Part shown: positions 27,264-44,036 of the stretch, piece after piece
How positions within the stretch are numbered: the first letter of the stretch is position 1
How the letters are laid out: every line of letters starts with the position of its first letter
Assembly: GCF_033441515.1 (NCBI RefSeq)
Contig: NZ_JAWQJT010000002.1
Coordinates: 1,612,001 to 1,676,000, forward strand
Length of the DNA stretch: 64,000 nucleotides
Direction: 5' to 3'
Origin: Amycolatopsis solani
Lineage (GTDB): Bacteria; Actinomycetota; Actinomycetes; Mycobacteriales; Pseudonocardiaceae
Program-made: the position numbers and the translations under genes
Notes under the pieces: model-generated
Seen by the model: only the letters and a program-made list of their open reading frames with translations
What the model was told of the DNA's origin: nothing
Database searches by the model: none

Positions 27264-27281
27264 GGCTAGGGCTCCTTGATC

Positions 27282-27295: not shown

Positions 27296-27361
27296 CATCT
27301 CGGCCCAGGCTAGCCCGCCGCGCCGCCGCGCGGAACCCCTCCGTCGCCTAACCTTGGCCGT

Positions 27362-27892: not shown

Positions 27893-28283
27893 GGCCTGTA
27901 TCGAAGTCGGTCAGAGCCACTCGTTGATCGCAGCGACATGGACGGCGGCTTCGTAGCGGACGGCGAGCTTGTCGTAGCGGGTGGCCACCCCACGGTGGCG
28001 TTTGAGCCGGTTGATGCCGCACTCCACCGCGTGTAGCCGGGACGGGGATGAACTGCGGGCTGTCACCGCCGGATCGCGTCGATCAGCTGCCGTCTGCTCC
28101 ACATCGACGGTCGCCCAGGCCGCTTCGGCTCGGGCAGCAACGGCCCCAGAACGGCCCACTGAGCGTCGGTCAGGTCGAACTGCCCCGCCACCACCAGGGT
28201 GTCCACGAGGTCTCCGGTGTTCAGGTTCTGAGGACGGGTTATCCGATGGGGAGCGGGGCAGGTCGACATAGGGATGCAGGCCC
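27892..28283 (-). mobile_element. Internally deleted IS5-family element
   Basis: A 392-bp element bounded by imperfect inverted repeats: GGGCCTGTATC at 27892-27902 and its counterpart GATGCAGGCCC at 28273-28283. It contains only the two ends of an IS5-type transposase gene. No matching target duplication is visible (CTA on the left, GGA on the right). It is non-autonomous but could be mobilised in trans if a full copy exists elsewhere in the genome. Confidence 0.8.
27911..28269 (-). pseudogene. IS5-family transposase remnant
   Basis: The start codon at 28269 opens a frame with the IS5-type N-terminal domain ([20 protein letters not shown], then [10 protein letters not shown]), which stops at 28063. 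The C-terminal catalytic end survives in another frame downstream ([20 protein letters not shown], ending AAINEWL at 27911). The intervening roughly 150-200 residues with the first two acidic catalytic residues are missing, so the protein cannot be active. The deletion junction lies around 28035-28063. Confidence 0.85.
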
Positions 28284-28311
28284 GGAGCCTGGTGACTACG
28301 GGCCGATCCCA

Positions 28312-29535
28312 TCAAGCCGCGAACGGCAGCGGCTGGTGCAGATTGTTGCGCCTGGGTTTTCGACGCTTGTCCAGGAATCGCGGGGGCACGAATTCCGGGT
28401 GACCATCGGACGCCACGCGGACCTGCCAGCCGGAACGGTGGATCAGTCGATGGTGATGCGCGCACAACAGGACCAGGTTGGCCAGATCCGTGGGACCACC
28501 GTCGACCCAATGGCGAATGTGGTGGCCCTGGCAATGCCGCGGCGGGCGGTGACAGCCCGGGAACGCGCAGCCACGGTCACGCAAAAACAAGGCCCGACGC
28601 AGACCAGGTGAGATCAGGCGGCGCGCTCGGCCCAAGTCCAGCGGTTCGCTGTTCGTACCCAGGACGGCCGGGATCAGCTTGCAATCGCAGGCATGGATCC
28701 GAGCCTCGAACGCCGAGATCAGGCCGGTGTCACCCAGGGTCGCGTGGCCCAGGCCGGATTTGAGGTCGGCGAGGGAGACCGCGACCATCACGTGGGCGCG
28801 TTCCCCGGCCTGGGCCGGTAGCTCCGGGGAGTTCAACGCCAGGTCCACCGCGTCGGAGAAGGCGTCGCCGTAGCGTTCCTGCGGGGAACGGAAATCGCCA
28901 CCGTCGTCAGCGGTGCGGCGTTCGGCCAACGCATCGAGCAGGGCACCGGCGCGGGTACCGGTCTCGTCGTCGAACCGGCCGGACAGCTCCCAGACCCCGG
29001 TGCGTTTGCGGCGCAACGAGAGCTCCCGGGTGGGAGTAGCGGGTTCCGTCTCGACCGGCGCGGCGCCGTCAGGGTCGAGGTGGGCGACGATCCGCGCACC
29101 GAGAGCGGCGACTTGGCGGTGGCCCGCGTCGGCGGCGAAAGCCAGCAGATCCTGTTCGGCGGTGTCGCGGTGCTCGGCGGGGATCCGGGACACGGCCTCG
29201 ATGATGGTGTCGATCATCGAGGTGCTCAGCGACCCCGTCAGGGCGGCAACGCCGGTGGCGGGGGCGAGCGCAGGAGTCCCGTCGAGGCTGTGAGTGGCGT
29301 TGAGGGCGTAGGCTCGGGTGACCGTGCGCCGGGCGGCGGTGTGGGGAATGTCCGCGAGGTGTTCCAGCAGCCGGGCAGTGGAGCGGTAGCCGAACAGCTC
29401 CATGACGCCACGGGATTCGATTTCCACGAGCAGCGCGCCGATTTCGGCCTCGGCAGACCGCACGACGGTGAGCAGCGCACGGAGACGGTCGGCCAAGGCC
29501 TCCGCGTCCGCTTGCCACACCGCTTCGCTGTCCAC
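28312..29535 (-). CDS. DUF222-HNH endonuclease domain protein
   Basis: A 407-aa member of the actinobacterial 13E12-repeat group: an N-terminal DUF222 helical domain (about residues 10-260; [20 protein letters not shown] segment near 50) and a C-terminal HNH nuclease with [20 protein letters not shown] and [11 protein letters not shown]. These are multicopy genes in actinobacterial genomes and their role is unknown; they often lie near mobile elements, and here an IS5 remnant is only 28 bp away. GTG 29535 lacks a Shine-Dalgarno site, while a TAATCT -10-like hexamer sits just upstream, so the mRNA may be leaderless. Confidence 0.9.
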
Positions 29536-29630
29536 ACAACAAGATTATCGGCGTTCGCACGCCTGTTCATCACTCGACCGGGTGGCGATGAGCGTTGCCC
29601 GGGAAGCCGTATCAGTGAAGCCGGCCAGTA

Positions 29631-30266
29631 TCAGCTGGCGATCCCGGGCAGGCTCAGGGTGTGCCCGGTCTGCTCGGCCTTGGCCCGCAGGTACCGGACG
29701 TTGTTCTCGGTCGCGAACACCCCGGTGGGCACCTGGTCCCGCACCGCGATCCCGGCCGCCCGCAGCTGAGCGGCCTTGTCGGGGTTGTTGGAGAGCAGAT
29801 CGACCTCATCGGCCCCGAGCGCCTTGAGCATCTGCGCGGCGACGGCGTAGTCCCGCGCGTCTTCCGGCAGCCCGAGCGCGGCGTTGGCGGCGTAGGTGTC
29901 GAGGCCGCCGTCCTGGAGGGCGTAGGCGTCGAGCTTGTTGTAGAGCCCGATCCCCCGGCCTTCCTGCCGCAGGTAGAGCAGGTACCCGCCGGTTTCGGAG
30001 ATCCGCTGCACGGCTTCGGCCAGCTGCGGCCCGCAGTCGCAGCGCGCGGACCCGAAGACGTCCCCGGTGAGGCATTCGGAGTGCGGCCGGACGAGGGGAA
30101 CGTCCCCGGGGGTGCCGAGCACGAGGGCGAGGTGTTCCCCGCCGTCTTCGAGCCCCCGGAAGGTGACGGCTTCGGCGTCGACCTCGAGCCCGCCGTGCAG
30201 CCGCAGCGGAATCCGCACCCGGGTCCGCACCTCGGCGGTCACGTCGTCGCCCCTGGAATCAGCCAC
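29631..30266 (-). CDS. ribA: GTP cyclohydrolase II
   Basis: First committed enzyme of riboflavin synthesis; opens GTP to a diaminopyrimidine with release of formate. The 211-aa protein has the zinc site ECLTGDVFGSARCDCGPQL, the catalytic arginine region YLRQEGRGIGLYNKLDAY, and LLSNNPDK. It is the stand-alone RibA form, without the RibB domain found fused in many actinobacteria, and no other rib gene is next to it. GTG 30266 gives the MADSRGDD N-terminus. It is divergent from the LysE gene. Confidence 0.94.
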   Translation of the reverse strand: MADSRGDDVTAEVRTRVRIPLRLHGGLEVDAEAVTFRGLEDGGEHLALVLGTPGDVPLVRPHSECLTGDVFGSARCDCGPQLAEAVQRISETGGYLLYLRQEGRGIGLYNKLDAYALQDGGLDTYAANAALGLPEDARDYAVAAQMLKALGADEVDLLSNNPDKAAQLRAAGIAVRDQVPTGVFATENNVRYLRAKAEQTGHTLSLPGIAS

Positions 30267-30354
30267 AAGATCGACCCTACACGAAGTTCAAATTCGAACC
30301 TGAGAGGTTCGCCACCCGGGAAAACCGCTGGCGCGGCGGTCGTAAGCTCGCCCC

Positions 30355-30987
30355 ATGATCCCCGCTGCCACCGCGGCCTCCTTCCTCCTCGTCGTCGTCC
30401 TCGGCGCGATGTCCCCCGGCCCCGACTTCGTCGTCGTCACCCGCTCGGCCCTCACCGGGGGGCGGCGGGCCGGGATCGCCGCCGGGCTGGGGATCGCGCT
30501 CGGGGTCTTCGCCTGGGTGGTCGCGATCGCGCTCGGGGTGGCCGCCGTGCTGACCGCGTCCGCGGTCGCCTTCACCGTCGTCAAACTGGTCGGGGCCGCC
30601 TACCTCGTCTTCCTCGGCGTCAAGGCCTGGCTGGCCGTCCGCCGCGGGGACTACCGGGACCTCGGCGAAGACGAGCACAAGGACCCGCTCAAAGCCGCCG
30701 CCGCGTTCCGGCAAGGGCTCTTCACCAACCTGCTCAACCCGAAGGTGGCCGTCTACTTCCTCGCGCTGCTCCCCCAGTTCCTCCCCGCCGACGGCTCCAC
30801 CCTGCAGACCCTCGAGCTCGCCGCCATCGCCACCGCCGGGACCGTGCTGTGGTTCGTCACCCTCGCCGTGGTCGTCGGGGCGCTCAAGAAGGTCTTCCGC
30901 AGCGGCCGGGTCCGGCGAGGGCTCGACGCGGTCCTGGGCAGCCTGCTCGTCGCGCTCGGCCTGAAAGTCGCGGCCGGGACGGCGTGA
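30355..30987 (+). CDS. LysE/RhtB-family amino-acid exporter
   Basis: A 210-aa inner-membrane exporter with about six transmembrane helices. The family fingerprint GAMSPGPDFVVVTRSAL near residue 20 and the loop FRQGLFTNLLNPKVAVYFLA near residue 120 are both present. The transported compound cannot be deduced. It is divergent from ribA, convergent with the MetE-like gene, and its stop codon lies within the left arm of the hairpin that separates them. Confidence 0.93.
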   Translation: MIPAATAASFLLVVVLGAMSPGPDFVVVTRSALTGGRRAGIAAGLGIALGVFAWVVAIALGVAAVLTASAVAFTVVKLVGAAYLVFLGVKAWLAVRRGDYRDLGEDEHKDPLKAAAAFRQGLFTNLLNPKVAVYFLALLPQFLPADGSTLQTLELAAIATAGTVLWFVTLAVVVGALKKVFRSGRVRRGLDAVLGSLLVALGLKVAAGTA

Positions 30988-31016
30988 GCCCGGAGCGGCA
31001 CCCCCGGGCTCACGCC
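30981..31016. terminator. Bidirectional hairpin between lysE-like and metE-like genes
   Basis: Perfect 13-bp stem, GGCGTGAGCCCGG (30981-30993) with CCGGGCTCACGCC (31004-31016), loop 10 bases. The lysE-type TGA (30985-30987) lies within the stem and the convergent gene stops 6 bp beyond it. There is no U tract. Confidence 0.7.
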
Positions 31017-31021
31017 GCGGC

Positions 31022-32083
31022 TCAGCCGAGCTTCTCGGCGGCCAGGCGGGTGCCTTCCACCCGGGCCTTGATCTTCGCGAAGGCGATGTCGCGCGAGGTC
31101 GACGTGTCGTCCGCGAACGGGGAGAACCCGCAGTCGTCGCACGTCCCCAGCCGCTCCACCGGCACGTGCCGGGCCGCCCGCAGCACGCGGTCGCAGACCT
31201 CTTCCGGGGTTTCCACGCGCGGGTCGATCGGGTCGACGACGCCGACGAAGACCCGCTGGTCCGCCTTCAGGTTGTCGGCGATGATCGCGAGCGCGCGGTC
31301 CGGGTCGGGTTCGCTGGCCAGCTGGACGAAGAAGCGCCCGGCCTTGAGGTCGAACAGCGCCGGCAGCAGGCCCGCGTAGTCGACGTCGAGGCTGTGCACC
31401 GAGTCCTGGTCACCACCGGGGCAGGTGTGGACGCCGATCTTCGCGCGTTCCTCCGCGGTGAACCGGTCGAGGACCGCGTTGTTCAGGTCGACGAACTGGC
31501 GCAGCAGGCCGCCGGACGGGTCCAGCTTCAGCGACAGGCGGCCCTCGGTGAAGTCGATCTGGACGCTGTCCGCGCCCGCGTCGAGGCTGCGCCGGATGTC
31601 CGCTTCGGCCGCGTCCACCAGGTCGGCGACGAACTGCTCCTGCGAGTACCCGTCGATGCCGTCGGCCGGGTAGATCAGCGAGATCGCGGACGCCGCGATC
31701 ACCGCCTGCTTGACCGGCTTGCCCGTCAGCGCCTTCGCCCGGGTCAGGTACTCGTCCGCGTGGGTCGCGTAGCGGAACGGGCCCGCCGTCAGCCGCGGCA
31801 GCTGGCGGGTGTGCCCGTCGGCGAACGGGATGACGACGCCGTCCGGGGCCAGCGCGGTCAGCCCGGCCAGCGGGTACGTCGCGAAGCTCGGCTTGCCCTG
31901 CTCGCCGTCGGTCAGCACCGGGGACCCGGTCTCTTCGAACCGGCTGATCGTGTCGGCCAGCGCGCGGCTCTCCAGCTCGGCGAGCGCGGCGGCGTCGATC
32001 CGGCCCGCGGCGAACTCGCCGAGGCCTTCGACGAGGTAGTCGGGGCGCGGGATGCTGCCGATCGGTTCGGTGGGCAGGGTCAT
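31022..32083 (-). CDS. Stand-alone MetE C-terminal domain-like methyltransferase
   Basis: A 353-aa protein of the cobalamin-independent methionine synthase barrel family, without the N-terminal half of classical MetE (about 750 aa). The zinc ligands are recognisable in GVHTCPGGD (His and Cys) and CDDCGF, and the acidic substrate site in SVQIDFTEGRL. Such short forms transfer methyl groups to homocysteine or related thiols from donors other than folylpolyglutamate; the donor here is unknown. ATG 32083 follows GGAGGACCTCG, which rules out the longer frame. The 248-bp leader shows no riboswitch I can recognise. Confidence 0.85.
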   Translation of the reverse strand: MTLPTEPIGSIPRPDYLVEGLGEFAAGRIDAAALAELESRALADTISRFEETGSPVLTDGEQGKPSFATYPLAGLTALAPDGVVIPFADGHTRQLPRLTAGPFRYATHADEYLTRAKALTGKPVKQAVIAASAISLIYPADGIDGYSQEQFVADLVDAAEADIRRSLDAGADSVQIDFTEGRLSLKLDPSGGLLRQFVDLNNAVLDRFTAEERAKIGVHTCPGGDQDSVHSLDVDYAGLLPALFDLKAGRFFVQLASEPDPDRALAIIADNLKADQRVFVGVVDPIDPRVETPEEVCDRVLRAARHVPVERLGTCDDCGFSPFADDTSTSRDIAFAKIKARVEGTRLAAEKLG

Positions 32084-32331
32084 CGAGGTCCTCCAGCTGC
32101 TTGAAGGTTCAGGCGCACGAAGAGGACGCAACGGCCCCCATCCGTCACCCGGGCCGTCACCGGCCACGTTCACAGGGCAACTTAACGTGCTCATCGGCCG
32201 TTACCGGGCCGGGATCACCCGGTCGGAGCAGCAAAAAGCACGAAATCAGAAGACGTTCGGCGGTTCGTTCGGAGGACGATGGGGTATTCGCTCTGGCGAC
32301 ACGGCGGGTTCGGCGCCGAAGGAGTACCCCG

Positions 32332-32595
32332 ATGCTCAGTCACCACGATCGCACCGAGCTCGAGAAGATCGAGCGCAGTCTCGAGGTCAGCGACCCCGAC
32401 CTCGCCACCGCCCTGCGCGAGGGCAAGCGCCCCCGATCGCGCGCGCTCCGCAGCACCGTCCTGATCGTCTTCGACGTCGTCGCCGTGGCCCTGCTGGTCG
32501 TGGGGCTGGTCCTGCCCGACCCCGGGGTCACGCTGTGCGGGATCCTCGCGCTCACCGGCACCGTCTGGACCCACGTGGCGCGGCACCGGATCTGA
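32332..32595 (+). CDS. DUF3040 small membrane protein
   Basis: An 87-aa protein with the DUF3040 layout: cytosolic start MLSHHDRTELEKIERSLEVS, a basic stretch, then two adjacent hydrophobic helices (about 42-62 and 66-82). The family is actinobacterial and of unknown function. ATG 32332 has AAGGAG at ideal spacing. It ends 16 bp before the polymerase gene on the same strand, so the two may be co-transcribed. Confidence 0.88.
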   Translation: MLSHHDRTELEKIERSLEVSDPDLATALREGKRPRSRALRSTVLIVFDVVAVALLVVGLVLPDPGVTLCGILALTGTVWTHVARHRI

Positions 32596-32611
32596 GGCGA
32601 GACTGGGCCCC

Positions 32612-33643
32612 GTGAAGTGGGTCCTGCACGTCGACCTCGACCAGTTCATCGCCGCGGTCGAGATCGCCCGCCACCCGGAGCTCGCGGGCAAGCCCGTCGT
32701 CGTCGGGGGCAACGGCGATCCCACCGAACGGGCCGTGGTCGCGACCGCCTCGTACGAGGCCCGCGAGTTCGGCGTCCAGTCCGGCATGCCGCTGCGGCTC
32801 GCCGCCAAGCGCTGCCCGGACGCCGTCTTCCTGCCCAGTGACCCGGACGCCTACCTCGAGGTGTCCGCGCGCGTGATGGCGGTGCTGCGGGAGTTCCCGG
32901 TCGTCGTGCAGGTGCTGGGCTGGGACGAGGCGTTCCTGGGTGCGGAAACCGGCGACCCGGAGGCGCTCGCGGCCGGCCTCAAGGACGCCGTGGCCCGCGA
33001 GACGGGGCTGTCGTGCGCGGTCGGGATCGGCGACAACAAGCTGCGGGCCAAGCTCGCCACCGGGTTCGGCAAGCCGGGCGGGATCTACCGGCTGACGCAG
33101 GAGAACTGGTGGGCGGTGATGGCCGGACGCCCGACCGACGCGCTGTGGGGCATCGGCGGCAAGACCGCGAAGAAGCTGGCCGAACTGGGCATCCACACGG
33201 TGCTCGACCTGGCGGGCGCGGACGCGGCGGCGCTGGCCGCCCGGTTCGGCCCGAAGACGGGACCGTGGCTGCGGCTGCTCGGCGGCGGCATCAGCGACGC
33301 CGACGTCAGCGCGACCCCGTACGTGGCCCGCTCCCGCAGCCGCGAGACGACGTTCCAGCGCGACCTCACCGACCCGGCGGAGATGGCGGCGGAGGTGTCG
33401 GCGCTGGCGAAGCGGGTCGCCCAGGACGTCCTGGACGAAGCCCGCCCGGCGGCGCGGGTGGCGGTCAAGGTCCGGTTCGTGCCGTTCCTGACCCACACGC
33501 ACAGCATCACCCTGCCGGAGCCGACGTCGGACGCCGCGGAGATCGACCGGGCGGCGCGCGAGGTGCTGGGGATGTTCGAGCTGACCCGCGCGGTGCGGCT
33601 GCTGGGCGTGCGCGCCGAGTTCACCCGCGAGGAAACCTCGTGA
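32612..33643 (+). CDS. dinB2: DinB2-type Y-family DNA polymerase
   Basis: A 343-aa translesion polymerase. Over its length it matches my memory of mycobacterial DinB2: WVLHVDLDQF, VVVGGNGDPTERAVV, GWDEAFL, CAVGIGDNKLRAKLATG, WGIGGKTAKKLAELGI and FELTRAVRLLGVR. Metal ligands Asp8, Asp105 and Glu106 are intact. At the steric-gate position (Tyr12 of Dpo4, Leu14 of M. smegmatis DinB2) it has Ile13, so poor discrimination against ribonucleotides is expected. No C-terminal beta-clamp motif is evident. GTG 32612 matches the family N-terminus. Its TGA lies inside the following hairpin. Confidence 0.93.
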   Translation: MKWVLHVDLDQFIAAVEIARHPELAGKPVVVGGNGDPTERAVVATASYEAREFGVQSGMPLRLAAKRCPDAVFLPSDPDAYLEVSARVMAVLREFPVVVQVLGWDEAFLGAETGDPEALAAGLKDAVARETGLSCAVGIGDNKLRAKLATGFGKPGGIYRLTQENWWAVMAGRPTDALWGIGGKTAKKLAELGIHTVLDLAGADAAALAARFGPKTGPWLRLLGGGISDADVSATPYVARSRSRETTFQRDLTDPAEMAAEVSALAKRVAQDVLDEARPAARVAVKVRFVPFLTHTHSITLPEPTSDAAEIDRAAREVLGMFELTRAVRLLGVRAEFTREETS

Positions 33644-33681
33644 GTGGTAAGTCGGGTTAGAACCCGACTTACCACTCACGA
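33638..33681. terminator. Long perfect hairpin between convergent dinB2 and tetR
   Basis: A 21-bp perfect inverted repeat (33638-33658 with 33661-33681) with AG between the arms. The dinB2 stop codon (33641-33643) is part of the left arm, and the tetR stop is 4 bp after the right arm. The loop-proximal AGTCGGGTT-AG-AACCCGACT and the basal CGTGAGTG are identical to the hairpin at 8571-8616, 25 kb away. Confidence 0.8.
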
Positions 33682-33684
33682 CCT

Positions 33685-34332
33685 CTAGAGCTCGCCGGGC
33701 AGCGGCAGCGGCCGGTCCGGGTCGAGGTCCACCCCGCCCGCCTTCAGCGTGTGGTCCAGCATCGCCCAGATCGTGCCCGTCAGCTGGTCCGTCAGCTGGG
33801 GCAGGCTCAGCGCGCCCGGGTGGTCGAGCCAGCGGGTGGTCGCCGACTCGACGTAGCCGACCAGGCCGAACGCGATCGTGTCCGCCGGGGCCGGGTCGAG
33901 GCCGAACGCCGTCAGGTAGCCCGAGAACAGGCCGCTGAGGTGGCGGGCGATCGTGCCGCGGACGTCCGGCGTGGCCGGGACCGCGCGGGTCAGGTAGCGG
34001 TGCAGGGACTCGTGCTCGGTCAGCCAGCGCAGGTGCGTCGAAATCACCGCCGTGATCATCTCGTGCGGCGAACCCGAGGGGTGCCACAGCGGCGCGAGCT
34101 CGGCCGTCACCAGTTCGGCCGCGCGTTCGGCGATCGCGCGCTGGAGGTCGGCCGCGTCGGCGAAGTGGCGGTACAGCCGGGTGCGGGCCACGCCGGCGCG
34201 CTCGGCGATCTGCTCGGTCGAGACCTCCGGGCCGTGCTCGGCGATGGCCGCCAGCGCCGCGTCGACGAATTCGGCGCGCCGCCGCTCCTGCTGGCCCGCC
34301 CAGCGCGCCGCCCGTCCGTCGACCTTGGTCAC
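33685..34332 (-). CDS. TetR-family transcriptional regulator
   Basis: A 215-aa TetR regulator: N-terminal helix-turn-helix FVDAALAAIAEHGPEVSTEQ, then IAERAGVARTRLYRHFADA, followed by an all-helical ligand domain. It is divergent from the AurF-like oxygenase across 89 bp and most likely controls that gene and itself. The intergenic stretch contains TGTAC (34364-34368) and GTACA (34386-34390) as possible half-sites. Start GTG 34332. Confidence 0.92.
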   Translation of the reverse strand: MTKVDGRAARWAGQQERRRAEFVDAALAAIAEHGPEVSTEQIAERAGVARTRLYRHFADAADLQRAIAERAAELVTAELAPLWHPSGSPHEMITAVISTHLRWLTEHESLHRYLTRAVPATPDVRGTIARHLSGLFSGYLTAFGLDPAPADTIAFGLVGYVESATTRWLDHPGALSLPQLTDQLTGTIWAMLDHTLKAGGVDLDPDRPLPLPGEL

Positions 34333-34421
34333 CCGGGAAGCCTACTCAAGTCCGGCGAGCCGGTGTACGCTCGCCGAAGTAACTAGTACAGCGCGTACCC
34401 CCTACTTTTCCGGAGGCCGCC

Positions 34422-35312
34422 ATGGGCGTCGAGGCCCAGGACCGGGACGTCACCGCGGCTCGCCTGCTCAAGAGCTCCGCGAAGAACTCCTACGACCCGT
34501 ACGTCGACATCGACTGGGCCGCGCCGCTCGCCGAGGGCAAGGCCTACATGCCCCTGGAGCGCGTCTCCCTCTACGGCACCGCGCTCTGGGCGGACCTCAC
34601 GCCGGAGCAGCGGATCGAGCTGTCCAAGCACGAGATCGCCAGCATCATGAGCGTCGGCCTGTGGTTCGAGATCGTCCTCATGCAGCTGCTCGCCCGGTAC
34701 GTCTTCGACCTCGACGCGCGCACCGAGCACGCGCAGTACGCGATGACCGAGATCGGTGACGAGACGCGGCACTCGGTGATGTTCGCCCGCACCGCCGAGC
34801 GGCTCGGCGTCCCGCGCTACGGCGTCCCGAAGGTCGTGCACCGCGCCGCCAAGGTGTTCGGCGCGACCGCCGCCGGGCCGTCGATGTTCGCCAGCGTGCT
34901 GGTCGCCGAGGAGACCACCGACCGGCTGCAGCGCTCGATGATGGACGACGACGGCATCCAGCCGCTGATCCGCTCGGTCAACCGCATCCACGTCGTCGAG
35001 GAGGCCCGGCACGTCCGGTTCGCCAAGGAAGAGGTGCTGCGGGAGACGCCGAAGCTGTCGAAAGCGGCGCTGCAGCGGCACCGGCTGCGGACCGCGCTGG
35101 TCGCGTTCGGCGTCATCGACAGCATGGTCGACCCGCGGGTCTACCGCAGCGTCGGGATCGACCCCCGCGCCGGCCGGGCCGCGGCGCTCGCCAACCCGCA
35201 CTTCCACGAGACGCGCCGCTGGATGGCGGAGAAGATCGTGCCGTTCCTGCGCGACGCGGGGCTGATCGGCGGCCGGTCGGAGGGCGTTTGGCGGCGCGCG
35301 CACCTGCTCTGA
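34422..35312 (+). CDS. AurF-like diiron oxygenase
   Basis: A 296-aa four-helix-bundle diiron protein related to the p-aminobenzoate N-oxygenase AurF. Ligand motifs are EIGDETRHSVMF, VAEETTDR and VEEARHVRFAKEE, which supply the glutamates and histidines of the site, including the extra histidine of the family. Most actinobacterial members are uncharacterised; amine oxidation or fatty-acyl chemistry are both possible. A strong ribosome site (GGAGG) precedes ATG 34422. The divergent TetR gene is the likely regulator. No pathway partners are adjacent. Confidence 0.85.
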   Translation: MGVEAQDRDVTAARLLKSSAKNSYDPYVDIDWAAPLAEGKAYMPLERVSLYGTALWADLTPEQRIELSKHEIASIMSVGLWFEIVLMQLLARYVFDLDARTEHAQYAMTEIGDETRHSVMFARTAERLGVPRYGVPKVVHRAAKVFGATAAGPSMFASVLVAEETTDRLQRSMMDDDGIQPLIRSVNRIHVVEEARHVRFAKEEVLRETPKLSKAALQRHRLRTALVAFGVIDSMVDPRVYRSVGIDPRAGRAAALANPHFHETRRWMAEKIVPFLRDAGLIGGRSEGVWRRAHLL

Positions 35313-35369
35313 CGCGCTGACCGGAAAATTCCCTTCACACCCCTTGCCCGGTTCCGCCACGATGCTCGC

Positions 35370-36011
35370 GTGACCGCAGAGCTCCCCGCCGCGCCCGCGC
35401 CGCCGCGCACCCACCCCGTCTTCGCGGGCCTCGTCGGCGTCATCGTGGGCGCGGTGCTGGTCGGCGTGCCGTGGCTGGCGCTGAGCCTGCTCGGCGGGCC
35501 CAGCGGAGGCGCGCTGACCGCGCCGGCCACCCTGGGCGGGCTCGCCCGCGCCCAGGACGCGCTCGCGAAGTTCGGCGTGGAAGAGAGCAAGGGCCAGGTC
35601 GCCCGCGTCGACAAGGCCGACCGGGAGACGGCCGCCCGGACGTCGGCGGCCTACGGCGGCGCGGGCGCGGTCGTGCAGCAGTACCAGGACGCCGGGCTGG
35701 AGCGCTCGTTCCAGCTGATCGCGGTGCGCGCGGCCTCGCCGGAGCTGGTGGCGCCGTACGAGGACGCCGAGGCGCTGGACCTGGCCGCGCCGGGCACCGA
35801 GCTCGTGCGCACCGGTGCCGTGCAGTGCCTGGTCCACCACGACCCCGAGCCGGCGGGCTCGCCACCGGACCCCGACCGGTCCTCCGTGCTGAGCTGCCAG
35901 CGCAGCGGCCCGGATCTGACCGTCACCGTGCGGTGCCTCAGCGCCGAGGGCAACCGCGATCCCCGCGAACTCGCCGGGATCGTCGAAGAGGCGTGGAAGG
36001 AGCTGTCGTGA
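35370..36011 (+). CDS. Single-pass membrane protein of unknown function
   Basis: A 213-aa protein with a short Pro/Ala-rich cytosolic start, one membrane helix at about residues 18-42 (VFAGLVGVIVGAVLVGVPWL) and an extracytoplasmic domain of about 170 residues with two cysteines (CLVHH, SCQRSG, also VRCLSA) that may form a disulfide. I do not recognise a family. The GTG start lacks a clear ribosome site. Its stop overlaps the GTG of the acetyltransferase gene (GTGA). Confidence 0.75.
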   Translation: MTAELPAAPAPPRTHPVFAGLVGVIVGAVLVGVPWLALSLLGGPSGGALTAPATLGGLARAQDALAKFGVEESKGQVARVDKADRETAARTSAAYGGAGAVVQQYQDAGLERSFQLIAVRAASPELVAPYEDAEALDLAAPGTELVRTGAVQCLVHHDPEPAGSPPDPDRSSVLSCQRSGPDLTVTVRCLSAEGNRDPRELAGIVEEAWKELS

Positions 36012-36493
36012 CGATCGCCGTCCGGCCGGCCCGCGCCGGGGACGAAGCCGCGCTCGCGAAGATCGACGAGCGCACGTGGGGCCCCGCCGTGTCCCCCGCT
36101 CCCCCGCCGCCGCCCGGCACGCCGTTCTTCGACGGCGGCTTGCGCACGGAGAACGTCCTCGTCGCCGAGCACGACGACGTCGTCGCCGGGTACGTCCGGC
36201 TCGACGAAGGCTTCGGCATCCCGGCCCACCGGCACGTGCTGGTCCTCGGCGGCCTCGCCGTCGACCCGGACCGCCAGGGCCTCGGCATCGCGGGCCGGCT
36301 GGTGGACGCGGCCGTGGCCGAAGCGCGCCGGCGCGGCGCCCGCAAGCTGACGCTGCGCGTGCTGGGTCACAACGCCGCCGCCCGCCGGGTCTACGAGCGG
36401 TGCGGGTTCACCGTGGAAGGCGTGCTGCGCGGGGAATTCCGCGTCGGCGGGACCGACGTCGACGACGTCCTGATGGCCCGTTCGCTCGCTTGA
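36008..36493 (+). CDS. GNAT-family N-acetyltransferase
   Basis: A 161-aa acetyltransferase. The acetyl-CoA binding motif A is in [20 protein letters not shown], and motif B in [19 protein letters not shown], followed by VEGVLRGEF as in RimI/RimJ-type enzymes. Target unknown. GTG 36008 overlaps the upstream stop. It ends 31 bp before the structured leader of ahcY and has no terminator of its own, so some read-through could enter the riboswitch. Confidence 0.88.
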
Positions 36494-36524
36494 CAGCTTC
36501 CCGGCGGCTTTGCCATCCTGGATC

Positions 36525-36594
36525 CGGGCCGAGAGGCGCTGCGACGGAAATTCTTCCGCCACGCTCGGCCCGCGACACGCATCCAAGGGCGCCT
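36525..36594 (+). promoter_or_regulatory. S-adenosylhomocysteine (SAH) riboswitch of ahcY
   Basis: The leader fits the known SAH riboswitch fold. P1 is CGGGCCGAG (36525-36533) with CTCGGCCCG (36564-36572). The conserved GGCGCTGCGAC follows the P1 left strand, and CCACGCTCGG matches the conserved right side. P2 is CGGAA-ATTC-TTCCG (36545-36558). The long-range helix pairs AGGCGC (36534-36539) with GCGCCT (36589-36594). The downstream gene encodes SAH hydrolase, the expected target. The distal strand overlaps the 5' arm of the terminator at 36588, so ligand binding should prevent termination and turn ahcY on. Confidence 0.9.
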
Positions 36595-36617
36595 CCCGCG
36601 AGGGAGGTGCCTTTTTT
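36588..36617 (+). terminator. Riboswitch-controlled intrinsic terminator before ahcY
   Basis: Stem GGCGCCTCCC (36588-36597) with GGGAGGTGCC (36602-36611), one G-U pair, GCGA tetraloop, then six T residues (36612-36617). It sits 63 bases before the ahcY ATG. Its left arm contains GCGCCT, which the riboswitch uses for its pseudoknot helix, so the two structures exclude each other. It is the only classical U-tailed terminator I found in the window. Confidence 0.88.
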
Positions 36618-36680
36618 CGTGGTGTCCCGCCAGTTCCTCCCGAGCGCTTCCGCAACCAGCCTCAGGAAAGAGCTCGAGGA

Positions 36681-38141
<1,461 letters not shown>

Positions 38142-38260
38142 CCCGAGATTGCTCCATTTGACGCAGTTTGCCGCACCGCGAAAGTGGCCATTCTCCCCGT
38201 GACAGCGCATCCGCCGGCCGGCACGCCGGATGGGTCCCATGCGAAGGAGTGTGTGTCAAA

Positions 38261-38416
38261 GTGATCGTTCTCGGTGTAATTCTTCTGATCATCGGGTTCA
38301 TCGTGGGAATCCCGGTGCTTTACACCATCGGCATCATTCTCGCGGTGGCCGGCGTGGCGTTGGCCATCCTCGGCGGCACCGGCCGCCGGATCGGTGGGCG
38401 TGCGCACTGGTACTGA
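38261..38416 (+). CDS. DUF6131-type 51-aa membrane protein
   Basis: A tiny protein, mostly two hydrophobic helices (IVLGVILLIIGFIVGIPVLY and IGIILAVAGVALAILGG) followed by a basic tail GRRIGGRAHWY. The layout matches a small actinobacterial membrane protein family (DUF6131) of unknown role. GTG 38261 lies 11 bases after AAGGAG; the overlapping upstream GTG within the ribosome site is less likely. Confidence 0.75.
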   Translation: MIVLGVILLIIGFIVGIPVLYTIGIILAVAGVALAILGGTGRRIGGRAHWY

Positions 38417-38517
38417 TCCACGACCGGCGAACGGCCCGGCACGTCAGCAGCGATGCTGTCGCGCCGGGCCGTTCGGCCGTTCCGCACCGCTTCGGGCGGG
38501 GAAAGCGGGAAATTTAA

Positions 38518-38558
38518 GGGTCCTCCGGCTCCGAGGGGGAGGGAGAGCCGAAGGACCC
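38518..38558 (-). terminator. Hairpin downstream of ku
   Basis: GGGTCCT-C-CGGCTC (38518-38531) pairs with GAGCCG-A-AGGACCC (38545-38558), 13 pairs and one mismatch around a 13-base loop. Read on the minus strand it is followed by TTAAATTT, so it best serves transcripts coming from ku, whose stop codon is about 260 bp upstream on that strand. Confidence 0.55.
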
Positions 38559-38637
38559 CGTTAGTGTTAGCACATCGCCAAGCCGGTGTACACAGCTGCA
38601 TACACGATCGTGTGACCGCAGGGGCACCGTCCCCACG

Positions 38638-38690
38638 CCGCGAAGGCCTCCCCGGCAGGTGCGCGGCACCCGGCGGGAAGGCCTTCGCGG
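38638..38690. terminator. 12-bp perfect hairpin between DUF6131 gene and ku
   Basis: CCGCGAAGGCCT (38638-38649) and AGGCCTTCGCGG (38679-38690) pair perfectly; the 29-base loop contains a further GC-rich stem. No U tract on either side. A role in transcription termination between these convergent genes is plausible. Confidence 0.5.
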
Positions 38691-38816
38691 ATCCTGGCGG
38701 GAGGCTCAGGAAGCTCGGCGCGGCAACGACTTCCGCACACTTCCTGGGTACCACCGCGAGGCGGCCGGGCGCGCGACCGCGGCGGCGTGTCGGCCGCGAC
38801 CACCCGTCCGGGGTGC

Positions 38817-39701
38817 TCAGGCGGACTTGGGGGCCCGTTTCCTCGGTGCCGACTTCTTCTTCGGCGCCGGCTTCGCGTCCTCATCGGACGCCTCCGAAGT
38901 GGACGTGTCCGAAACGGACTCACGCGACTTCTTCGCCGCGTCGACGCTGGCCTGCAGCGCCGCCATCAGGTCGACGACGTCGGCCTTGGCGGTGACCGCC
39001 GCGGGCTTGGTCGTCTCCTCCCCCGCGACCTTGGCCTCGATCATCTCCTCGAGGGCCTCGCGGTAGTGGTCGTGGTACTTCTCCGGCTCGAACACCGGCT
39101 CGGCCAGCGAGTCGATCAGCGAGCCCGCCATGGACAGCTCCTGCGGGCGGATCTGCGGCGGGTCGTCGCGCAGGAACGGGAAGTCGGGTTCGCGGACCTC
39201 GTCCGGCCACAGCATCGTCGTCATCACCAGCACGTCGGCGTGCACCCGCAGCACCGCCATGCTCTCCCGCTGCCGCACGGCGACCTTCGCGATGGCCACC
39301 TGGCTCGACTTGTGCAGCGCGTCCCGCAGCACGATGTACGGCTTCACCGCGTTCTTCTGCGGCTCCAGGTAGTACGTCCGGTCGTACTGGATCGGGTCGA
39401 TCGACTCCAGCGGCACGAACTCCAGCACGTCGATCGTGCGCTGCGTGGGCAGCGGCAGGTCGGCCATCTCGGCGTCGGTGATGACGACCATCTCACCGTC
39501 GGGCAGCTCGTAGCCCTTGGCGATCTCCGGGTACGGGACCTCGGCGCCGTCGATCGTGCAGAACCGCTTGTACTGGATGCGGCCGCCGTCGGCCTCGTGC
39601 ACCTGGCGGAGCGAGACGTTCTTGTTCTCGGTGGCCGCGTACAGCTGGATCGGGATGCTGACCAGCCCGAACGACACCGAGCCCTTCCACATCGCCCGCA
39701 T
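38817..39701 (-). CDS. ku: Bacterial Ku, non-homologous end-joining
   Basis: Forms the homodimeric ring that holds broken DNA ends and recruits LigD. The 294-aa protein has the Ku core (MWKGSVSFGLVSIPIQLYAA, then FCTIDGAEVPYPEIAKGYEL, ALHKSSQVAIAKVAVRQRES) and a Lys/Ala-rich basic tail (KPAPKKKSAPRKRAPKSA) typical of actinobacterial Ku and thought to thread on DNA. ATG 39701 is chosen because GGAGG is eight bases upstream and MRAMWKGS is the usual start. A LigD-like gene lies 9.7 kb away rather than adjacent. Confidence 0.96.
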   Translation of the reverse strand: MRAMWKGSVSFGLVSIPIQLYAATENKNVSLRQVHEADGGRIQYKRFCTIDGAEVPYPEIAKGYELPDGEMVVITDAEMADLPLPTQRTIDVLEFVPLESIDPIQYDRTYYLEPQKNAVKPYIVLRDALHKSSQVAIAKVAVRQRESMAVLRVHADVLVMTTMLWPDEVREPDFPFLRDDPPQIRPQELSMAGSLIDSLAEPVFEPEKYHDHYREALEEMIEAKVAGEETTKPAAVTAKADVVDLMAALQASVDAAKKSRESVSDTSTSEASDEDAKPAPKKKSAPRKRAPKSA

Positions 39702-39775
39702 GCCACGTACCTCCGAGGTCGACTTCACGCTCGGTAATTACCGTAGCCCGAAACGTCCCCCGGCGACAGTCTGAT

Positions 39776-41002
39776 CTAGACCTCTGCCAGGTACTTCTCC
39801 CACTTCGCGGGGTCCAGGAACCAGTGCTGGAAGTCGGTCGGGTCGGTGAACCCGTTGGCGAACCGCCGGGCCACGGCCGGGTTCTGGCCCGCCACCCCGA
39901 GGATCTGGAGCACGTGCGGGGGCGGCGGGAGGAGCAGCGCGTTGGTCCATTCGGTGACGTGCTGGGCGTACTCCCAGTAGCGCTCGAACGTGGCATCCAT
40001 CCACGCGGCGTCGAACGGCCGGTCGCCGTGCTCGAGGATCGCGGTCAGGTAGGTCGCCGCGCAGTGGCTCGCGTTGTTCGAGCCCTGCCCGGTGATCGGG
40101 TCGTTCGCCACGACGACGTCGGCCATGCCCAGCACCCGCGCGCCACCCGGCAGGGTGCCGACCGGGTTGCGCACGACCGGGGTGTACCCGCCGGCCAGTG
40201 CCGCCTTGCCGTCGGTCAGCTCGGCGTCGCGGCAGCGCTCGTACTCCCACGGCACGAACTGCCGCATCAGGTCCAGCAGGCGCGTGAAGTGCTCGGCCGG
40301 GGCCGGGTGGTCGCCGAAGCAGTCCAGCGGCCCGCCGGGGATCCCCTCGAAGAACAGGATGTCGCAGTTCCCGCTCAGCGTGTACGCCGGGATCATGAAC
40401 AGCTCGCCGACGCCGGGCACGATGTTGAACCGCACCGCCTGCTTGTCCGGGTGCTCCGGCCGCGGCCGGACACCGTGGGCGTACGCCAGCGAGAGCGCGC
40501 GCATCGGCTTCGTGTACGGCGACCGCTCGGGCACGCGGTCGAACAGCTGCACCAGCTCGCCCTTGCCGGCCGAGATGATCACCAGGTCGTACAGCCGCGC
40601 CAGCGCGTCCAGTTCGGACGTCATCACGCCGTGGATGACGAGCTTGCCGCCGCGGTCCTCGAACAGCTCCAGCCAGCCCGCCATCTTCACGCGCTGGTCG
40701 ACCGACTGCGCGTAGTGGTCCAGCTCGGCGAACCAGTCCAGCGCGCGGCCGCCGTCCGGCGCGGCCACCGACACGCCGAGGCCCTCGACCCGGACGGTCT
40801 CGTCCTCCCACTGGTTCAGCCCGAGGTCCCGTTCGTGCTGCAGCGCGTCGTTGAACATGCACTGCGTCGACATCACCCGCCCGGCCCGGATCTCCTCCGG
40901 CGTCCGCGCGGACATCACCGTGACGTCGTAGTCCTTCGCCAGCAGCCCGAGGGCCAGCTGCAGCCCGGACTGGCCGGCGCCCACGATCAGGACTCTGCGC
41001 AT
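39776..41002 (-). CDS. Styrene monooxygenase StyA-like flavoprotein at the end of a conservon
   Basis: A 408-aa class E flavoprotein monooxygenase. The N-terminal FAD fold RRVLIVGAGQSGLQLALGLL, LVIISAGKGE and the second FAD region DPITGQGSNNASHCA match StyA-like epoxidases; length is close to StyA (about 415). Such enzymes need a separate flavin reductase (StyB), which is not encoded nearby. It starts 19 bp after cvnD on the same strand and is thus the fifth gene of the conservon, the slot filled by a cytochrome P450 in several Streptomyces conservons. ATG 41002 follows AGGAGAGAAG. Confidence 0.85.
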   Translation of the reverse strand: MRRVLIVGAGQSGLQLALGLLAKDYDVTVMSARTPEEIRAGRVMSTQCMFNDALQHERDLGLNQWEDETVRVEGLGVSVAAPDGGRALDWFAELDHYAQSVDQRVKMAGWLELFEDRGGKLVIHGVMTSELDALARLYDLVIISAGKGELVQLFDRVPERSPYTKPMRALSLAYAHGVRPRPEHPDKQAVRFNIVPGVGELFMIPAYTLSGNCDILFFEGIPGGPLDCFGDHPAPAEHFTRLLDLMRQFVPWEYERCRDAELTDGKAALAGGYTPVVRNPVGTLPGGARVLGMADVVVANDPITGQGSNNASHCAATYLTAILEHGDRPFDAAWMDATFERYWEYAQHVTEWTNALLLPPPPHVLQILGVAGQNPAVARRFANGFTDPTDFQHWFLDPAKWEKYLAEV

Positions 41003-41021
41003 GAAGCTCTTCTCTCCTCGT

Positions 41022-41642
41022 TCAGGCCTGGGCAACGCTGCCGGCCAGCTCACGCGGCCCGGACAGCACGGCGAGCGACAGCGTGTGGCTGACCAGCTCG
41101 GTCAAGGTGGCGATCGCCGACGCGCGGTCACGGGCGTCGCAGGTGACCAGCGGGACGCTCGGGTCGAGCGCGAGCGCGTCGCGCACCTCCTCGAGGTCGT
41201 GCACCGGCATGCCCTCGAACTGGTTGACCGCGACGACGAACGGCAGCTCCGAGTCGTTCTCGAAGTAGTTGATCGCCGCGAACGACTCGTCGATCCGGCT
41301 GGTGTCGACCAGCACGACCGCGCCGAGCGCGCCGCGGCTCAGGTCGTCCCAGAGGAACCAGAACCGCGCCTGCCCCGGCGTGCCGAACAGGTACAGCAGC
41401 AGGTCCGGCCGCAGCGTGATGCGGCCGAAGTCCATCGCGACGGTCGTGGTCGACTTGCCGCCGGGCGGGATCTCGTCGACGCCTTCGCCGGCCTCGGTCA
41501 TCCAGGCTTCGTTGCTCATCGGCGGCACTTCCGACACCGCGCCGACGAACGTGGTCTTGCCGACACCGAAGCCCCCGGCGACGACGATCTTCGCGGAGAT
41601 CGTCAGCAGATCGCCCTCAGGCGGGGAGCCGCTTGAGCCCAT
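41022..41642 (-). CDS. cvnD: Conservon Ras-like GTPase CvnD
   Basis: A 206-aa MglA/Ras-like GTPase. The P-loop is GGFGVGKTTF, switch II lies in FGTPGQARFWF, and the base-recognition motif is NQFE in place of NKxD, as usual in conservon GTPases. It would be the output switch of the CvnA-B-C membrane-associated complex. ATG 41642 is preferred over the adjoining TTG; it lies 26 bp inside the end of cvnC. The monooxygenase gene follows directly. Confidence 0.93.
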   Translation of the reverse strand: MGSSGSPPEGDLLTISAKIVVAGGFGVGKTTFVGAVSEVPPMSNEAWMTEAGEGVDEIPPGGKSTTTVAMDFGRITLRPDLLLYLFGTPGQARFWFLWDDLSRGALGAVVLVDTSRIDESFAAINYFENDSELPFVVAVNQFEGMPVHDLEEVRDALALDPSVPLVTCDARDRASAIATLTELVSHTLSLAVLSGPRELAGSVAQA

Positions 41643-42018
41643 CAAGGATCCTCTCGAGGACGTTGGTGTCGTGGTGGTAGGCGTGCGCGGTGGGGTGGAC
41701 GAACACCGCGCCCTGGGAAGCGAGGTCGCCGATCAGCACCCGCACCACGCCCAGCGGCAGGTCCAGCCCCACCGACAGCTCGGCGATCGAGGACCGCACG
41801 CGAGCGCGTTCGTAGAGCGAGCGCGATTCGGGCATCAGCGTGTCGCTCAGCGACGGGTCGTACTGCGGGACCGAGACCAGCGTTTCCACCAGCAGCTGGT
41901 GGCGGGTGCTGGTGCGGCCGCCGGTGAGCGCGTACGCCCGGATCCGGCGGCTGCGCCGGGGCAAGGCGGTGTCCTTCTCGGACATGGTCTTCCCATCCGT
42001 GTCGGGCACGCCCATCAC
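41617..42018 (-). CDS. cvnC: Conservon DUF742 protein CvnC
   Basis: A 133-aa DUF742 protein, typical third member of a conservon. It has the family hallmark RAYALTGGRT near residue 30 and a winged-helix-like core (ELSVGLDLPLGVVRVLIGDL). The GTG at 42018 overlaps the stop of cvnB; a later ATG (MSEKDTALP) is an alternative start. It has been proposed to link the sensor to the GTPase in heterotrimer-like signalling. Confidence 0.92.
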   Translation of the reverse strand: MMGVPDTDGKTMSEKDTALPRRSRRIRAYALTGGRTSTRHQLLVETLVSVPQYDPSLSDTLMPESRSLYERARVRSSIAELSVGLDLPLGVVRVLIGDLASQGAVFVHPTAHAYHHDTNVLERILDGLKRLPA

Positions 42019-42452
42019 ACCCGCGGCCGGCGCGCGGTCAGCACCTGGCGCAGTTCGGCGCGCACCTCGGGGGTGAGCGCGTGGCCGGCGTTGGTGATGA
42101 ACTGGGTCATCTCGTAGGCGACCACCTTCATGTCCGCCTCGCCCGAGGTCAGCACCGCGAGCCCGGCACCGGAACCGATGCCCATGAAGAGGAAGTAGCC
42201 GTGGGTGAGCCGGATGATGATCTGCTCGCAGGCGCCCTTCCCGAACAGCGCCGCGCTGTTGCCGGCCAGGGAGAGCAGGCCGCTGGCGATCGCGGCGAGC
42301 TGCTCGGCCTCCGCTTCGCCGACCGAGTCCGACGCGGTCAGCGGGAAGCCGTCGACGCTCATGATCAGCGCGTGGCTGACCCCGTGCACCTTCCGGACGA
42401 AGTCGTCGAGCAGCCAGGCGAAGTTCGCCGGTGCCGGGTGGGGGGCGCTCAC
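42015..42452 (-). CDS. cvnB: Conservon roadblock/LC7 protein CvnB
   Basis: A 145-aa roadblock/LC7-domain protein, resembling GTPase-activating or scaffold proteins of MglB type. Recognisable elements are FVRKVHGVSHALIMSVDGFP near the start and LTHGYFLFMGIGSGAGLAVL in the core. GTG 42452 overlaps the cvnA stop (GTGA). It would act on CvnD. Confidence 0.93.
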   Translation of the reverse strand: MSAPHPAPANFAWLLDDFVRKVHGVSHALIMSVDGFPLTASDSVGEAEAEQLAAIASGLLSLAGNSAALFGKGACEQIIIRLTHGYFLFMGIGSGAGLAVLTSGEADMKVVAYEMTQFITNAGHALTPEVRAELRQVLTARRPRV

Positions 42453-43687
42453 GGGGCGGTTCCTCCGGGCGTTTCGTCCTGGTGGGCGGGGTTTTCGGCG
42501 TGCGCGGCCGCCTCGCCGTCGGCGAACGCGCCGAGGTCGGCGAGCAGCTTCTCGTGCCCGTTCGCCGCCGGTTCCGCGGCCGGGGGCGGCGGTGGCGGCT
42601 CGGGGGCGGCGCCGCGGATGCTGCCGGGCACGCGGCGCGGCAGGCCGTTGGCCGTGGTGCCGCCGGTGGCCCGCTCGACCGGCCGGGGCCGGGGGGTGGG
42701 CTTGCGCGGCACCGGCGCGGGCTCCTCGCGCGGGAAGGCGCCCGGGCGGCGGCGCGGCAGCCCGCCGGTCACCACCGGTTCGCCGCCGGCCTTGACCGGT
42801 TCGGCCGTGACGGTCCGAGTGCCCGACCACGCGTTCTCGGCCAGCTCGGTGACGACGCCGGTGGGCAGCAGCACGGTCACGACCGTGCCGTGCGGGCTGC
42901 GCCGGTCCAGGCGCACGGCGACGCCGTGGCGAGCGGCGAGGCGGGCGACCACGGCGAGGCCCATGTGCCGCGCCGAAGCGTCGTCGAGGTCGCCGCCCGC
43001 GGCCAGCCGCCGGTTGAGGCCGTCGACGCGGTCGGCGGGGATGCCGATGCCCTCGTCCTCGATCCGGACGAGCACGCTGCCCTGCTCGGTCAGGTGCGCG
43101 CTGACGTGCACCGGCGAGCTGGGCGAAGACTGGTTGGCGGCGTTGTCGAGCAGCTCCGCGAGCACCCGGCCCAGGTCTTCGGCGGCGAAGCCGACGACCC
43201 CCAGGTGCACCACGCGCCCGATGGTGATCCGGGCGTAGTGGTCGATCGAGGACATCGCGGCGCGCACGAGGTCGAGCACCGAAGTCGCGCGGGCGGCGTC
43301 GTCGGCGGTGTCCTGCCCGGCCAGCACCCGCAGGTTCTCGGCGTTGCGCCGCAGCCGAGTGGCGAGGTGGTCGAGCTGGTAGAGCTCGGCGAGGCGGTGG
43401 TGGTCCTCCTCCCCCGCCTCGAGCTCCTCGAGCCGCGCGAGCAGCTGGTCCAAGAGGTTGAGGTCACGCAGGGCCACGCTGGCGCAGATCTCGGCCAGCA
43501 CGCCTTCGTCCGCGGCCGGCGTCGCCGGCTCCAGCTCGGGCCGCGACAGCTCCGCGATGGCCGGCCCCGGCGCGGGCTCGTACCCGGGGTGCTTCGGCGG
43601 CGCGGTGAGGTACTGCGCGGCGGCGACCCGCGAGCGGTCCAGCAGGACGCGTGATCGATCCAGGAGTTCCCGGGCCCGGCTCGCCAT
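42449..43687 (-). CDS. cvnA: Conservon sensor-kinase-like ATPase CvnA, short cytosolic form
   Basis: A 412-aa protein with the HATPase domain of conservon kinases: the helical segment LDHLATRLRRNAENLRVLAG, N box LAELLDNAANQSSP, G1 box EDEGIGIP and MGLAVVARLAARHG. The C-terminal third is Pro/Arg-rich and low complexity. Unlike many CvnA proteins it has no transmembrane helices or extracellular sensor; the predicted N-terminus is a 40-residue stretch with repeated LLDRSRV. No upstream in-frame extension with hydrophobic segments was seen. First gene of the operon; an inverted repeat lies 180 bp upstream. Confidence 0.9.
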   Translation of the reverse strand: MASRARELLDRSRVLLDRSRVAAAQYLTAPPKHPGYEPAPGPAIAELSRPELEPATPAADEGVLAEICASVALRDLNLLDQLLARLEELEAGEEDHHRLAELYQLDHLATRLRRNAENLRVLAGQDTADDAARATSVLDLVRAAMSSIDHYARITIGRVVHLGVVGFAAEDLGRVLAELLDNAANQSSPSSPVHVSAHLTEQGSVLVRIEDEGIGIPADRVDGLNRRLAAGGDLDDASARHMGLAVVARLAARHGVAVRLDRRSPHGTVVTVLLPTGVVTELAENAWSGTRTVTAEPVKAGGEPVVTGGLPRRRPGAFPREEPAPVPRKPTPRPRPVERATGGTTANGLPRRVPGSIRGAAPEPPPPPPAAEPAANGHEKLLADLGAFADGEAAAHAENPAHQDETPGGTAP

Positions 43688-43869
43688 GTGGTCCCACTTC
43701 TTCCTTGCTCAGGTTCGGCAACGACTGCAGCGCCGACCCCCGGGCGGCGATGCCGGACATGCAAGCAGAAAGGTTCGTCGGATGTCCACAGCCGGTCCCC
43801 GCGCGATCGCTCGACGTGACCGGATTTCGGGGCCGTCGCTGCTGGTGAGCGCAGTGGGCTAGGCCATTC

Positions 43870-43892
43870 GGTGCAATTTTGCATCTTGCACC
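43870..43892. promoter_or_regulatory. Inverted repeat upstream of the conservon
   Basis: GGTGCAA (43870-43876) and TTGCACC (43886-43892) form a perfect 7-base inverted repeat around a 9-base centre. It lies in the 349-bp gap between cvnA and the divergent TetR gene, which otherwise shows only the tandem TetR-like sites nearer 44000. A candidate protein-binding site for conservon control. Confidence 0.4.
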
Positions 43893-43981
43893 TGGCAACG
43901 GAGCGCACATGGCCGCCGATCTCGCAGCCCATCCCCCGCTTTCGCCACGAAATCCCTGGTCGTGCCCGATTCGTCCCAAAC

Positions 43982-44030
43982 TTGCGGGCCACGCACTTTT
44001 TTGCGGGGCACGCAAGTTTTTCGCTACACT
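43982..44030 (+). promoter_or_regulatory. Tandem operators and leaderless promoter of the TetR-ABC operon
   Basis: Two near-identical 15-mers start 19 bp apart: TTGCGGGCCACGCAC (43982) and TTGCGGGGCACGCAA (44001), the second a perfect TTGCG-N5-CGCAA palindrome. The second contains the probable -35 (TTGCGG), and TACACT (44025-44030) is a good -10 after 18 bp. The ATG follows 7 bases later, so the mRNA is probably leaderless and the TetR protein probably represses itself and the exporter here. Confidence 0.6.
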
Positions 44031-44036
44031 CCGTTC

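Follow-up and report, generated by a model that had tools for sequence, protein, structure and literature searches.

How might the leader of ahcY in Amycolatopsis solani couple the level of S-adenosylhomocysteine (SAH) to production of the hydrolase that removes it? We analysed a window of 64,000 nucleotides around this leader (contig NZ_JAWQJT010000002.1, positions 1,612,001 to 1,676,000). Judged from its sequence, the best-supported mechanism is SAH-dependent antitermination with SAH as the ON signal, and we put the probability that an SAH riboswitch controls the SAH hydrolase gene by antitermination at roughly 77%. The features on which this reading depends are listed below in window coordinates.

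36490..36521, + strand: putative promoter, TTGACA at 36490-36495, 18 bases, CATCCT at 36514-36519; suggested by conservation in relatives
36525..36601, + strand: SAH riboswitch aptamer, RF01057 match
36525-36533 with 36564-36572, + strand: P1, 9 pairs, CGGGCCGAG with CUCGGCCCG, read from the sequence
36534..36539, + strand: pseudoknot 5' strand AGGCGC, partner at 36589-36594
36545-36549 with 36554-36558, + strand: P2, CGGAA with UUCCG, read from the sequence
36588..36597, + strand: terminator left arm GGCGCCUCCC, containing the pseudoknot 3' strand
36589..36594, + strand: pseudoknot 3' strand GCGCCU, inside the terminator left arm
36598..36601, + strand: hairpin loop GCGA, read from the sequence
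36602..36611, + strand: terminator right arm GGGAGGUGCC, containing GGAGGUG, a Shine-Dalgarno sequence
36612..36617, + strand: U-tract U6, directly after the right arm
36635..36640, + strand: CCUCCC block downstream of the hairpin, with partial complementarity to the terminator right arm
36681..38141, + strand: ahcY, S-adenosylhomocysteine hydrolase, 486 aa (TIGR00936, PF05221, PF00670)

The SAH riboswitch is the sole Rfam match at the gathering threshold in the whole window. A cmscan search places RF01057 at 36525-36601 with 38.8 bits against a cut-off of 37, a small margin; over the entire window the E value is 0.0011, and all 78 positions of the model are covered. The earlier note on this DNA had proposed such a covariance search, and the match is significant. 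It had also named the riboswitch parts in order, and every element lies where it was placed, letter for letter. P1, P2 and the pseudoknot are all present, as in other members of the class, and the downstream gene belongs to SAH or methionine metabolism (ahcY here, metH for a second copy elsewhere in the genome). The ahcY product scores 615 bits with TIGR00936 against a cut-off of 497.6, and both the riboswitch class and the target gene stand as first proposed. The window shares with the Rfam consensus the aptamer fold, the conserved core and ahcY as a target, but the alignment shows both pseudoknot strands to differ (GAGCGC/GCGCUC in the consensus, AGGCGC/GCGCCU here), and the consensus has A where the window has G at 36543. 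The ligand of the window aptamer would be SAH, as in the class. RF01057 matches at E <= 1 occur in 76 of the 80 genus genomes sampled and exceed the cut-off in 46. At E <= 0.01 the model matches 196 of 297 genomes in a family sample (92 above the cut-off) and 61 of 393 in a class sample (19 above). We examined eight weak hits in genus genomes (24.5-26.8 bits) as candidate third SAH targets and treated them as chance matches, since no ahcY or metH lies in the retrieved stretches.

The distal part of the leader has the structure of an intrinsic terminator, a stable G+C-rich hairpin followed by a U-tract. The stem comprises ten pairs, one of them G-U. Hairpin and tail together have a predicted stability of -22.9 kcal/mol (z -5.8), which none of 200 shuffles equalled. 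A scan of both strands of the window for U-tailed hairpins (dG <= -10, at least five T in seven) found the site at 36588-36617 alone, at -23.9. Dinucleotide shuffles of one strand (n = 60) gave a mean of 0.38 sites, the strongest reaching -18.6 against -23.9 at the window site. The earlier description of this hairpin as the only U-tailed terminator in the window is borne out, as the two-strand scan finds no other strong U-tailed hairpin. One other T6 run is present on the + strand, at 43997-44002, and in the scan it is not immediately preceded by a hairpin of dG <= -7. A separate terminator scan of 26600-46500 did not list the hairpin at 36588-36617, probably because AAG:UUU can add three pairs that extend the stem into the U-run. 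Transcription would be expected to stop at this hairpin.

The pseudoknot and the terminator overlap just as the earlier note had claimed, with GCGCCU at 36589-36594 lying within the left arm at 36588-36597. The pseudoknot strand and the terminator arm are therefore made of the same bases, and the two folds are mutually exclusive. In the proposed mechanism, RNA polymerase would start at about 36526, which would place the aptamer at the very 5' end of the RNA. In the absence of SAH, GCGCCU would enter the hairpin at 36588-36611 and transcription would stop within the U-tract at about 36617. Once SAH is bound, the pseudoknot 36534-36539/36589-36594 would close and keep six bases of the ten-base left arm out of the hairpin, which would then fail to form; ahcY would be transcribed, and SAH would induce its own removing enzyme. 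The prediction that SAH is the ON signal comes from the identity of the strand held by the aptamer and also fits the role of the enzyme. The main physical doubt about antitermination is the short time available for ligand binding. The right arm starts only 8 bases past the pseudoknot strand, so the decision must fall with the polymerase near the U-tract.

We compared this arrangement with the ahcY leaders of relatives. We classified 77 leaders: 71 from genus genomes (70 without the second G056 copy), one from a named A. orientalis and five from named outgroups. A named A. orientalis record has an AhcY identical to that of genus genome G036, which points to Amycolatopsis as the genus sampled. 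The 70 derive from 73 genus loci, two of which (G070 and G079) lack the core, while one is a second copy from the same genome. The search pattern required the core and GGCGCCT and leaves leaders without these uncounted; the constancy of the pseudoknot in ahcY leaders is not evidence, because the pattern required the strand. Aptamer and hairpin occur together in all 70 classified genus loci, including clades with the hairpin directly before the ahcY start. In 57 of them the start lies 49-230 bases past the hairpin and at least four of the next 8 bases are T; in 10 a gene intervenes, and in three the start is beside the hairpin, again with at least four T. None of the 70 combines a start 20-700 bases from the hairpin with fewer than four T. 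A tail of at least four T in 8 bases is thus found after the hairpin in 57/57 distant-start leaders, against 6.6% of 4605 other 8-mers from the same leaders. Four T stand in a row in 29 of the 57 and five in 23. One clade has a run of four T in just 3 of 19 leaders, and its termination may therefore be weak. From other genera of the family 27 loci were chosen, of which 25 could be read: 12 have the start beside the hairpin, one has a distant start with a T-tail and 12 have a distant start without one. Readable distant-start leaders outside the genus thus have fewer than four T in 12 of 13 cases, so a distant start alone is no proof of a terminator. The combination of distant start and T-tail is nearly confined to Amycolatopsis, and distant starts elsewhere therefore need another explanation.

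The position of the RNA start is suggested by a second conserved sequence. A TTGACAG-N12-TTTGCCAT[C/T]CTGG element lies upstream of the aptamer in 46 of the 57 distant-start leaders, with N always 12, and is absent from the other 11. It ends 3-4 bases 5' of P1 in 44 of the 46 leaders and 38 bases 5' of it in two. A consensus promoter scan detected no promoter before the aptamer. From the conservation we infer a promoter at 36490-36521 and an RNA start at about 36526, which would give a terminated transcript of about 90 nt. In the window the promoter-like sequence overlaps the stop codon of an acetyltransferase gene ending at 36493. The earlier note did not mention this element, which would place the RNA start at P1.

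A different reading accepts the aptamer but makes the hairpin mainly translational, hiding GGGAGGUG, which would serve a short leader frame coupled to ahcY. Such a frame exists in the window (GTG at 36619 to TGA at 36684, overlapping the ahcY ATG), 53 of the 57 leaders have a Shine-Dalgarno sequence as their right arm, and the cited part of a study of M. tuberculosis (PMC12810186) reports a conserved upstream frame controlled by a translational riboswitch. We nevertheless consider this reading very unlikely: the start codon, frame and length of the leader frames differ among relatives, many frames have only a TTG drawn from the T-run, 2 of 58 leaders have no frame at all, and the U-tract is left without a role. 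A conserved leader peptide was also considered, and was ruled out by the variation in start, frame and length. It is a little harder still to credit that the switch works but that termination needs Rho or NusA/NusG instead of being intrinsic. The same account of M. tuberculosis (PMC12810186) reports Rho-dependent termination together with a translational riboswitch, and T-runs are interrupted in many relatives, but the hairpin and U6 of the window are canonical. That the hairpin and U6 are the ordinary terminator of the upstream acetyltransferase gene, overlapping by chance a degenerate or non-responding aptamer, is highly improbable: a same-strand GNAT gene (Pfam Acetyltransf_1) does end 95 bases 5' of the hairpin, but aptamer and hairpin co-occur in the 70 genus loci, including hairpins adjoining the ahcY start, the pseudoknot covaries in metH copies, and the conserved promoter-like sequence lies between the two genes.

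The covariation comes from a paralogous switch that the earlier note had not described. The genome of the window has two RF01057 matches at E <= 1, and the second (L001) precedes MetH, methionine synthase, whose profile score lies below the full-length cut-off because the retrieved stretch holds the N-terminal part only. The metH leader has the strand CCAAGGGCGCCUCCC in common with the ahcY leader. Its partner, GGGAGGCUGCC, is the Shine-Dalgarno sequence for a GTG start codon that lies a few bases further downstream, and the hairpin lacks a U-tract. The other metH copies that were read also have the right arm directly 5' of the start codon, and only 2 of 64 parsed copies from genus and class have at least four T in the 8 bases after the hairpin. 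These copies were found with a pattern that required the core and a GGRCGCCT-like strand, which leaves leaders without them uncounted. The pseudoknot is paired in 64/64 parsed copies, with changes on both sides in five (AGGCGU or GGGCGU with ACGCCU); the pairs are AGGCGC/GCGCCU in 50, GGGCGC/GCGCCU in seven, AGGCGU/ACGCCU in four, AGGCGU/GCGCCU in two and GGGCGU/ACGCCU in one. The core letter at 36543 is specific to the paralogue: 75 of 76 ahcY switches have G (UGCGAC-type) and 61 of 64 metH switches have A (UGCAAC). This difference may tune affinity.

The window gene is one of two for the enzyme in its genome. At least two AhcY matches are present in 76 of 80 genus genomes, some of them possibly split or doubled genes. 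The second AhcY of the window genome (C1:2728108) is 71% identical and has no RF01057 match nearby, a point missing from the earlier note. The enzyme under riboswitch control is probably a second, inducible SAH hydrolase, and the two AhcY enzymes may divide the labour between them.

Relatives also suggest where the terminator came from. In Jidongwangia and Pseudosporangium the ahcY start lies beside the hairpin, as it does, with a T-rich spacer, in Herbihabitans, Actinoplanes and two genus genomes (G003 and G057); in G003 and G057 the order is hairpin, T-run, GTG start. Among the five named outgroups, the start is beside the hairpin in two with fewer T and in two with at least four T; Dactylosporangium is classed as distant, though an in-frame ATG lies 11 bases past the Shine-Dalgarno sequence. 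Since relatives have the ahcY start directly after the same hairpin, a few of them with a U-run spacer, a hairpin that masked the Shine-Dalgarno sequence of ahcY was probably the precursor of the terminator. The U-rich spacer before the start codon would have become the U-tract once the ahcY start shifted downstream. The right arm, which the earlier note had not recognised as a Shine-Dalgarno sequence common to relatives with an adjoining start codon, retains GGAGGUG in those 53 distant-start leaders at the cost of one G-U pair in the stem; GGAGGCG, which pairs better, occurs in three. Retention of GGAGGUG despite the G-U pair fits a relic Shine-Dalgarno sequence. The direction of evolution was read from an AhcY tree of 92 rows, built by a quick method, in which 40 of 88 inner branches stay open. 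One clade (97, starred) unites the riboswitch-linked AhcY proteins; it includes Micromonosporaceae and two members without a riboswitch core. The terminator state needs seven changes on this tree, at least four of them forced by starred branches. In the simplest account the ancestral form was a hairpin that hid the Shine-Dalgarno sequence and was followed by a U-rich spacer; the terminator state may also have been gained repeatedly and reversed.

We also considered a role for the CCUCCC block downstream of the hairpin. A CCUCC[C/U] block recurs in the clade of the window, in a second Amycolatopsis clade and in genus g141 of the same family, and its letters tend to track the right arm. A 6-mer of the left arm is repeated in the block in 31 of 57 leaders, with 7.3 expected: 24 of 27 in the window's own clade, 6 of 6 in another group and one of the remaining 24. 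In a strand relay with a latch, the block would capture the right arm freed by SAH-dependent read-through, lock the leader ON and keep ribosomes off the relic site. We regard this extension as unlikely. Pairing between block and right arm is weak in the window (pairing 0.02; complementarity p 0.18). Complementarity reaches p <= 0.05 in 16/27 loci of the window's clade, 4/6 of another group and 5/13 from other genera, and in 0/19 and 0/5 in other Amycolatopsis groups, values that are not independent because the loci are related; arm:block pairing exceeds 0.5 in 14 of 30 loci. A version of the relay in which the block hides the Shine-Dalgarno sequence of ahcY itself found no support. The probability that this site is unpaired averages 0.39 over 33 loci when the arm is free and 0.35 when it is hidden, being higher by more than 0.05 in 12 loci and lower in four. 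The block is complementary to the ahcY site at p <= 0.05 in 6/26 loci of the window's clade, 0/6 and 1/6 in other groups.

Antitermination by SAH would place the ahcY leader among several known systems. The cited sections of earlier work describe SAH riboswitches before ahcY in Proteobacteria and before metH in Comamonadaceae (PMC4239095), the class in Mycobacteriaceae (PMC3766115), and both ON riboswitches that bury pieces of a terminator and dual platforms (PMC2258182). The literature thus already covers the riboswitch class, its occurrence in actinobacteria and dual platforms, and the window riboswitch belongs to a known class and has an expression platform of a known kind. In certain adenine, glycine and lysine ON switches, ligand binding withholds a terminator arm as proposed here (PMC2258182, in the section cited), but what is withheld in the window would be the aptamer's own pseudoknot strand. 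In fluoride and ZTP riboswitches, as described in parts of PMC13273304 and PMC10907184, the aptamer or pseudoknot overlaps the terminator and the two compete during transcription, as here; ligands and folds are different, and no relationship is implied. Dual transcription-translation platforms, in which the 3' terminator arm holds the ribosome-binding site, as outlined in the passage cited from PMC2258182, resemble G003, G057 and Herbihabitans in having hairpin, T-run and start codon in succession. That passage sets a distance of at most 10 nt between terminator and start codon, whereas the window retains the Shine-Dalgarno arm and has the ahcY ATG 69 bases past the end of the hairpin. We found no paper on this ahcY leader in the open-licence literature; an earlier description of terminator-type SAH switches is possible. 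The leader is a clean candidate for testing whether SAH controls termination in a high-GC actinomycete, and its value lies in two things. One is the metH switch with the same left arm, a naturally occurring translational control within this genome. The other is a graded series of relatives, from a Shine-Dalgarno hairpin beside the start, through the same hairpin with a U-rich spacer, to a hairpin with a U-tract and a distant start; existing sequences could therefore allow the change from a translational to a transcriptional riboswitch to be traced stepwise.

Several loci depart from these patterns. Six loci of genus g141 (L301, L294, L307, L308, L309 and L293) have the ahcY start 45-78 bases from the hairpin and a tail of fewer than four T. 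Riboswitch-type or related AhcY proteins without the core in the stretch read are found at L168 and L169 (G070 and G079) and at L211 and L212 (G001 and G011). Two hairpins outside the 70-locus count have a T-tail (G031) and an interrupted tail (G073). The riboswitch-linked ahcY of G031 (L215) matches in two pieces in different frames, the result of an assembly error or a real break. In 11 leaders of the A. orientalis clade (L033, L164, L170-L173 and L176-L180), about 0.85-0.9 kb separates the hairpin from ahcY. In the three that were read (L033, L164 and L177) the insert is a methyltransferase gene on the opposite strand, assigned in L033 by Pfam Methyltransf_25/11, and the riboswitch RNA would run antisense to it. 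All 11 of these leaders keep the Shine-Dalgarno arm with a GTG 6-8 bases on.
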